Source of the DNA: Acidimicrobiales bacterium
Lineage (GTDB): Bacteria; Actinomycetota; Acidimicrobiia; Acidimicrobiales; GCA-2861595
DNA length: 38,991 nucleotides
Assembly: GCA_036262515.1 (NCBI GenBank)
Contig: DATAIT010000129.1
Location: 1-38,991 of the forward strand
Reading direction: 5' to 3'
This document shows, piece after piece, positions 36,900-38,991 of this stretch. Below the pieces are notes generated by a model that was given only the letters and a program-made list of their open reading frames with translations, did no database searches and had not been told where the DNA came from. The translations under genes were made by a program, and so were the position numbers. Positions within the stretch are counted from its first letter, which is position 1. Each line of letters starts with the position of its first letter.

Positions 36900-37840
36900 A
36901 TGGCGGACTCGACGTCCCTTGTCCTGTACGACCCCCGCACCGCCGACCCGGAGGTGATCGCCCCTCGCCGGCTTCCTGGCCGGCTACAGCGGGCGCACCC
37001 GTGAGGCGTACGCCCTGGACCTGCGCCAGTTCTTCGCCTGGTGCAAGGATCGCCAGCTGCGACTGTTCGACGCCCACCGCACCGACATCGAGCTGTACGC
37101 CCGCGACCTCGAGGAGCACGGCAAGGCCAAGGCCACCATCGGCCGGCGGCTGTCGACCATCGCCGGGTTCTACCGCTACGCCGCCGAGGAGGGACTCATC
37201 GAGCACTCCCCGGCCGTCCACGTCCGCCGGCCCCGCCTCGACTACGAGTCGCACGCCGTGGGCCTGGACCGCAATGAGCTGGGCGCCTTCCTGGTGGCGG
37301 CCGGCCTGGCATCAGCCCAGGCCCACGCCCTGGCCTCGCTGCTGGCCCTCAACGGTCTGCGCATCTCCGAGGCCCTCGGGGCGAACATCGAGAACCTCGG
37401 CCTCGAGCGGGGGCACCGCACCCTGCTCGTGCACCGCAAGGGCGGCAAAGACGGTGACCATCCCGCTGGCACCCCGTACGGCCCGGGCCGTCGACCTGGC
37501 CATCGGCGACCGACTCGACGGCCCCATCTTCGTGGATGTCTCCGGCGCCCGTCTGCGTCGCGATGCGGCAGCCAGGATGGTGCGCCGCCTGGCCAGGCGG
37601 GCCGGCATCGCGAAGCGGATCGGCCCCCACAGCCTGCGGCACTCCTTCATCACCGCCGCCCTCGATGCCGGCGTGCCGCTGCGTGACGTGCAGGAGGCGG
37701 CCTCCCATGCCGACCCCCGCACCACCATGCGCTACGACCGGGCCCGCCAGTCCCTGGACCGTCACGCCATCTACATCGTGGCCACCTTCGTGGCCGGCGC
37801 CTCCCGGGGCGACGCCGGCCCCGCTTCTCGGCACCGGTAG
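36900..37840 (+). pseudogene. Tyrosine recombinase, full length with two one-base frameshifts
   Basis: ATG 36900 has a GAGAGGAGAG ribosome site. The protein reads MADSTSLVLYDPRTADPEVI, then (after an extra C in the CCCC run near 36963) AGFLAGYSGRTREAYALDL with the core-binding domain (TIGRRLSTIAGFYRYAAEEG) and GLRISEALGANIENL with the catalytic Arg. After an extra A in the AAA run near 37447 it continues TVTIPLAPRTARAVDLAIG, GPHSLRHSFITAALDAG (H-x-x-R-H), EAASHADPRTTMRYDRA (His and Tyr nucleophile). All catalytic residues are present. Both defects sit in homopolymers, so either recent inactivation or sequencing error is possible. It is distinct from the truncated recombinase at 2796-3656. Confidence 0.85.
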
Positions 37841-38471: not shown

Positions 38472-38857
38472 CCGCGGGCCTGCGTGAACGAGGTGCCGTT
38501 GTACGCGCCCAGGCCGACGACCGACTGGATGACCGCTCCGGCGCCGACGCCGCTCGCTATCACCAACTCGGCGTGGCCGTCGGGTCGGGAACCAGCACGA
38601 GGCGCGCTGCAGAGTCGGCTCGTGCGTTGGCCCCCGCCAGGAGCGCATGACTTCTCCCGTCGACCTCTTTACCGTCCGAACAGGCGGAGCAGGACACCGG
38701 TGAGCGCCGCGTAGGGGCCGCTGCCCTCGTACGCGTCTCGCGGCTTCGAGGTGCGCCATGACGAGTGCAAGAACTGCCAGTTTCGAGGCATCTCGTCTGG
38801 CTTCGCCTTGGGTAGCCGAGTCCTGCCCCGGCGCTTCATGCCACCTGATCCCACTGG
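38472..38857. other. Spacer between the small operon and the group II intron
   Basis: No gene can be supported. A minus-strand frame (38669-38854) begins near the intron 3' end and ends LLRLFGR, and might be exon sequence of an interrupted gene, but it has no recognisable motif. Other frames are low complexity. This would be the 3' exon side of the intron. Confidence 0.4.
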
Positions 38858-38939
38858 TAGTCAGGGGCGCGGTGCCGTTGCCGGCCCGTTTCCCCATCCC
38901 CCTTTCAATCCGTGCATGCGGTTCTCCCGCACACGGCTT
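38858..38939 (-). mobile_element. Group II intron 3' end (domains V and VI), body beyond the edge
   Basis: On the minus strand, domain V is visible at 38939-38907: the AGC catalytic triad in AAGCCGTGTGCGG, a GAGA-type tetraloop, and the returning strand CCGCATGCACGGATT with the usual two-base bulge. Domain VI follows: GGGG/CCCC base stem, CGG/CCG, then GCCG-GCAA-CGGC with a GNRA loop, and the 3' terminus about CTGACTACC (38858-38864). Domain V is 33 bases rather than 34. The reverse transcriptase and the 5' part should lie right of 38991. Group II introns splice themselves and move by reverse transcription into DNA. Whether this copy is complete cannot be told. Confidence 0.72.
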
Positions 38940-38991
38940 ACCGACGGTCGTCTGAACATGGTTACGCAGCCTTCGGGTAGCGGATGGTGCC

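Follow-up and report, generated by a model that had tools for sequence, protein, structure and literature searches.

Evidence for a lineage of group II introns, related to class C, that inserts directly behind host start codons

The window analyzed here is the entire contig C129 (38,991 nt) of a 129-contig genome, and it breaks off within a mobile element. The feature at its very end (38852-38991, minus strand) is almost certainly the 3′ end of a group II intron. Comparison with related introns indicates that this intron probably belongs to a mobile, endonuclease-less lineage that affiliates with class C and inserts right after the start codon of leaderless genes. Directly observable are the position of insertion, the single start codon at empty sites, an intron-borne RTG, the covariation of EBS1 with IBS1 and an open in-frame ORF. 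The original prediction recognized an intron end at this place and overlooked the main point, namely that the intron/exon border is a start codon and that the lineage appears to be specific for start codons and their promoters.

Within the window, the assignment as an intron 3′ end is upheld by the agreement of the RF00029 match, a repeat 100% identical on contig C126, copies of 38851-38991 with 77-92% identity in genomes of the same order, and the C-terminus of the reverse transcriptase (RT) (Table 1). Domain V is located exactly where it had been placed, on the minus strand, with triad, GNRA loop and bulge visible, and the domain VI-like stem with its GCAA loop directly follows. The RF00029 search proposed with the prediction yielded a real, full-length match at 38860-38941 on the minus strand (33.7 bits, E 4.8e-5; permissive search of the last 392 bases only), which nevertheless stays below the gathering score of 40; a cmscan of the whole window returned no Rfam match at gathering score. 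The low score is partly explained by the triad G facing an A instead of a U, a variant common to the actinobacterial relatives compared. Six of ten complete relatives exceeded the cut-off over the full length, and in the whole genome RF00029 matched at two places only, both at this intron repeat. A single-strand folding z of -2.06 for the feature is weak evidence on its own.

Table 1 Features of the intron 3′ end and its flank in the window
Feature	Position	Strand	Evidence
RT/maturase ORF, last nine codons (GTIRYPKAA)	38965..38991	-	sequence; C-terminus matches relatives; remainder beyond contig
Stop codon TAA of the RT ORF	38962..38964	-	sequence; position matches relatives
Domain V with AGC triad, GAGA (GNRA) tetraloop and two-base bulge	38907..38939	-	RF00029
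Domain VI with GCAA loop and putative bulged branch-point A at 38858	38856..38902	-	inferred by comparison with relatives
Last three intron bases GTG, putative intron-borne start codon	38852..38854	-	discordant triplets in L086, L105 and L101; empty sites
3′ exon, remainder of the 61-aa frame opening at the intron-borne GTG	38669..38851	-	ORF listing
141-nt repeat, identical at the end of contig C126	38851..38991	-	flanks diverge from 38850 downward

The RT had been expected just outside the window. Most of it does lie beyond the contig, which breaks off where homologous introns carry the RT ORF upstream of domain V, but the last nine codons and the stop codon (38962-38991) are inside. The RT ORFs of the relatives, which share this C-terminus, affiliate with TIGR04416 (416 bits), RVT_1 and GIIM; profile scans detected no endonuclease domain in them. 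The 3′ exon was correctly sought below the intron, at 38669-38857, but this border has to be moved: the intron ends at 38852 and not at 38858. By comparison with relatives, in which the domain VI pairing GGGG/CU[A]CC is kept, 38858 is likely the branch-point A, 7 nt from the intron end. The 61-aa frame of the 3′ exon, a candidate host gene, had no NCBIfam family match and no relatives.

An RT-based search for relatives yielded 80 loci assigned to named organisms, and many of these contain the complete intron together with its two flanks. In 33 of 37 distinct 5′ exons, a TANNNT hexamer is located 6-7 nt before an RTG and the intron begins right after this triplet, compared with 0.5 cases expected from shuffled sequences and with a base rate of 0.6% for TANNNT at that spacing before all RTG in the same loci. 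The 37 junctions comprise those of the relatives and of the queA and gcvT copies of this genome, and these two copies show the box, the spacing and the RTG as well. The 5′ exon of the window copy is unassembled. The intron 5′ end directly behind the RTG reads GTGCG, TTGCG or TCGCG. The first set of 5′ junctions was biased, since an NTG before the intron had been required, and the survey was repeated with a flank-blind HMM of the intron 5′ end. Among the full-length starts in the lineage, this model gave one exception, a GCG behind an intact TAGAAT box in L101. The spacing between TANNNT and RTG varies from 6 to 7 nt inside one subfamily, and the middle bases of the hexamer are free. Leaderless genes have this layout, with a -10 box placed 6-7 nt ahead of their start codon. 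No -35 motif was found, and TANNNT is for this reason considered a promoter by position and conservation only. The host genes starting at the target codon encompass queA, gcvT, MTHFR, ilvE, hemB and ettA. Insertion of the lineage at a start codon behind a -10 box is strongly supported by these junctions, and leaderless transcription of the host genes would be in line with their layout.

The 3′ border of the introns is likewise a start codon. Introns of the lineage terminate with CUACCARUG or with a sequence close to it, and among 48 distinct 3′ flanks retrieved with a domain V/VI pattern the border triplet was ATG in 42 and GTG in six. Starting at this RTG, 38 of the 48 flanks have a frame that runs on for 90 codons or more, or as far as the sequence reaches, versus 9 and 27 for the other two frames; L073 and L098 are among the few flanks open for a few codons only. 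Occupied and empty orthologous sites differ by a precise insertion. A single RTG was present at the empty queA sites of G001 and G003, at the empty gcvT sites of C104, G001 and G003, and at seven Nannocystis sites that are empty in sister species. The TANNNT hexamer is kept at empty sites while its middle bases drift (e.g. TACACT/TAGACT and TAGGCT/TAGTGT), and in all three testable cases the empty site of a GTG-type intron has a native GTG. For L086, the search for a clean empty site gave none.

In some copies the two border triplets disagree, with a 5′ GTG and a 3′ ATG in L086 and L105 and a 5′ GCG and a 3′ ATG in L101, and therefore the 3′ triplet travels with the intron. The branch-point geometry concurs: the A of CUACC places the intron end 7 nt further on, after the RUG, as in the sister group ending in CUACCUCAC and in the class C consensus (PMC4028801). 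A 3′ RTG belonging to the exon as a target-site duplication is ruled out by the discordant triplets together with this geometry. An intron-borne RTG is thus strongly supported for the lineage by the alignments, and, with RTG as the last three intron bases, the host gene would possess a start codon in spliced as well as in unspliced RNA. In four non-actinobacterial introns (L084, L092, L100 and L115), AGGA or AGGAGG occurs about 7 nt before the terminal RTG; these motifs inside domain VI are possibly Shine-Dalgarno sequences that could allow initiation on the host gene without prior splicing.

The hairpin GCCG-NUCAYN-CGGC of domain I contains EBS1. Across the entire alignment, a single column separates the intron types perfectly, with CAC in 4/4 GTG-ended and CAT in 29/29 ATG-ended introns, and EBS1 CAY agrees with the terminal RTG in 33/33 relatives. 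The evidence for CAC consists of four GTG-type copies of one subfamily. The EBS1 of this genome's own intron lies outside the assembly and is predicted to be CAC; among 396 genomes of the phylum, GTG-ended introns were found in this genome only. An EBS1 of the ATG type (CAU) can form a wobble pair with GTG, which fits the one-way discordance of the border triplets. The next base of EBS1 pairs with the exon base before the RTG at 30 of 32 sites (18.9 expected; 0 of 20,000 shuffles were as good), and the pairing signal stops after this fourth pair. The covariation strongly supports an EBS1-IBS1 interaction of four pairs, formed by CAY plus one base with N-RTG. The EBS1 loop CUCAUN (e.g. intron positions 200-232 in L059) resembles the anticodon loop of the initiator tRNA, CUCAUAA. 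This likeness is probably a convergence on AUG pairing.

Four pairs cannot specify a site, and therefore the -10 region must contribute to target recognition. The free middle bases and the spacing of 6-7 nt suggest that this region is read as a promoter and not base-paired. A competing view, which we regard as a serious candidate although it falls short of an even chance, accepts start-codon insertion as real but proposes that TANNNT is read as DNA by the RNA or the protein of the intron, as an IBS2-like or protein-bound element, and not as a promoter melted by RNA polymerase. Direct reading of the DNA would account for the fixed TA and T, the nearly fixed distance and the missing -35 signal; it is less easily reconciled with middle bases that are free and a spacing that varies by one nucleotide inside one subfamily, both unlike base pairing, or with the conservation of the box at empty orthologous sites. 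The question touches recognition only and leaves the rest of the model intact.

In 22 of 35 copies (unselected count), the RT frame extends back through domains I-III to the host start codon without a stop. Among the 25 non-actinobacterial copies the frame is shared by 21, where one third would be expected; L103 and L108, which have a 194-codon leader out of frame, are counted as failures. In 17 copies, which were chosen as in-frame, 573-636 nt precede the RT and the other frames hold 3-12 stops. Eight actinobacterial copies have a leader: reading from the host start codon, no stop occurs for 125-128 codons, until RTGGTGA, in which an overlapping RTG falls into the RT frame and represents the RT start. 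In the simplest reading of these frames, the RT is likely made from the host start codon, through an unbroken frame or through re-initiation coupled to the leader. An alternative in which the RT has an internal start of its own, and the frame from the host codon is open merely as a side effect of GC-rich DNA and a conserved ribozyme, appears unlikely. Five of the 35 copies (L091, L095, L104, L105 and L111) do break the frame rule, shuffling gave a chance of about 1% per copy for an open frame at such GC content, and neighbours in the tree are not independent of each other; yet the 21 of 25 non-actinobacterial copies remain in frame in spite of the distance to the RT, L106 keeps its open frame at a lower GC content (0 of 2000 shuffles do), and every actinobacterial leader terminates at one common overlapping motif, RTGGTGA. 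Two loci, L061 (G086:C9) and L031 (G035:C4), comprise about 600 nt of 5′ ribozyme and domain V and no RT, and are apparent ORF-less derivatives.

With the host start codon as the preferred origin of RT translation, the proposed working of the element would be as follows. The target would consist of the -10 box (TANNNT), 6-7 nt and an RTG, with EBS1 pairing to N-RTG. The host promoter would transcribe the host start codon, the intron and the gene into one RNA, whose 5′-terminal RUG would serve for leaderless translation of the intron ORF, either as a fusion whose frame spans domains I-III or, in Actinobacteria, through a leader with translational coupling to the start of the RT. Before splicing, the 3′ RUG of the intron would equip the host gene with a start codon; splicing would then restore the original leaderless mRNA. 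Both this restoration and a targeting assisted by the polymerase are inferred. A 5′ exon of 3 nt would be unusually short for splicing and counts against the model. In yeast mitochondria, the introns aI1 and aI2 have ORFs fused in frame to the upstream exon, and the host start codon initiates the intron protein. The upstream exon here would, in contrast, be just the start codon, and the intron would itself supply a substitute start codon at the 3′ terminus.

Among group II introns, the element is related to class C but differs from this class in two features, the target and the 3′ end. With class C (IIC) introns such as GsI-IIC it shares the RF02003 domain model, and the RT of GsI-IIC is its nearest solved RT (230 bits). 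Likewise, no endonuclease domain was found in the relatives' RT ORFs, the EBS1-IBS1 pairing is short and the branch A lies 7 nt from the end. In contrast, the 5′ exon of the start-codon lineage is a -10 box plus a start codon, whereas class C introns are located behind a terminator or attC, and its introns have the 3′ end CUACCARUG where the consensus for class C reads CCUACYCGAU (PMC4028801). Maximum-likelihood analysis of 46 RTs placed the 32 start-codon introns together on one side of a single branch (96/94); their records carry the names of eight phyla, and some are metagenome bins. This clade adjoins class C-like rows in the tree, which contained no curated class references, and is separate from the class C-like Bacillales rows; most of the inspected Bacillales introns outside the clade are located behind terminators, as judged by eye. 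The nearest RT relatives outside the clade are actinobacterial sister introns (L035-L038, L063 and L064). These have a similar domain V but end in CUACCUCAC instead of RTG and have no start-codon junction.

The Azotobacter groEL introns of Michel et al. 2007 are reportedly inserted at the termination codon of groEL and hence likewise at the edge codon of a housekeeping gene (PMC4465626); they differ in that the codon is a stop and not a start, and they have been described with a large 5′ insertion. A review from 2015 distinguished three target specificities of bacterial group II introns, i.e. homing sites, terminators and attC (PMC4424553). Our literature search, with partial coverage, found no earlier start-codon, leaderless or promoter specificity for group II introns, and priority is unproven. 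If the present reading is true, a specificity for start codons and promoters would be a fourth beside these three. It would also follow the opposite logic to class C introns, which occupy sites behind terminators and are seldom transcribed (PMC8919778), explain the survival of introns in the housekeeping genes queA, gcvT, ilvE, hemB and ettA, and make each insertion the mark of a candidate leaderless promoter. Cultured Nannocystis would then offer a testable system for the splicing of a 3-nt 5′ exon and for the passage of ribosomes through a ribozyme. The full reading as a fourth target class goes beyond the working model and is held with less confidence, at slightly under an even chance. It proposes that the intron homes to leaderless promoters and reverse-splices into melted DNA behind the start codon, takes over the host promoter and start codon and translates its RT straight through the ribozyme, carries the start codon of the host gene at its own 3′ end, and may recognize AUG by the EBS1 loop (CUCAUN) much like the initiator anticodon.

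Selection after insertion offers a different explanation of the site pattern, in which an ordinary class C-like intron of low specificity inserts widely and only the copies behind leaderless start codons, harmless and expressed, survive. The EBS1-IBS1 interaction, with four pairs too few for a choice of site, and the other targets of the relatives outside the clade would agree with such a history. We nonetheless consider it rather improbable, since box and spacing are common to 33 of 37 sites, the three GTG-type introns that could be tested all occupy sites with a native GTG start, and EBS1 covaries with the start codon, which argues for a specificity built into the intron. Survival may still have sharpened the pattern.

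The window contig stops inside the intron because the intron is present in several copies and its body was not assembled. Contigs C50 and C66 end in an identical 141-base stretch that reaches into the intron 5′ end, and RF02003 (group-II-D1D4-4), which matched in 10/10 complete relatives, scored 69.1 bits at both of these 5′ ends, which lie outside the window. On C50, the last part of an ORF resembling RuvB is present (translation judged by eye), and C126 begins with queA (NCBIfam). The flanks of C50 and C126 adjoin in G001 and G003, and therefore one full intron copy lies between them. C66 ends upstream of gcvT, which follows the C66 gene in G001 and G003. This makes C66 a doubtful 5′ partner for the window copy, which represents a third site or a rearrangement and whose 5′ exon is absent from the assembly. 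That the window holds just a dead 3′ fragment, as its 140 intron bases and an isolated RT fragment of the same kind on C30 could indicate, is very unlikely, since the two 3′ ends, like the two 5′ ends, are identical to each other and all four break off 141 nt into the repeat, the expectation for recent full-length copies with an unassembled body.

The fragment on C30 (L006; 2-184, minus strand), an isolated piece of a same-family RT (LANIYLHAFDRAWAERGAGEVVRYADDF), lies at the beginning of the contig, adjoins unrelated sequence on its inner side and represents a truncated copy. In the same assembly, positions 1-46 of C104 (L171) hold an uninterrupted gcvT promoter and start site whose flank is the same as at the intron-bearing end of C66 (L068). 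This suggests polymorphism of the gcvT insertion within the sampled population, or else an artefact of assembly. Another RT-like domain (RVT_1, 50 bits), a stretch of 186 aa in a 1139-aa open frame at G000 C114:5071-5628, was set aside as apparently belonging to a different RT system. Lastly, the region of a 279-aa ORF at 37001-37840 on the plus strand of the window contains overlapping frames with GLRISEALG and HSLRHSFITAALDAG, which by eye resemble a tyrosine recombinase.
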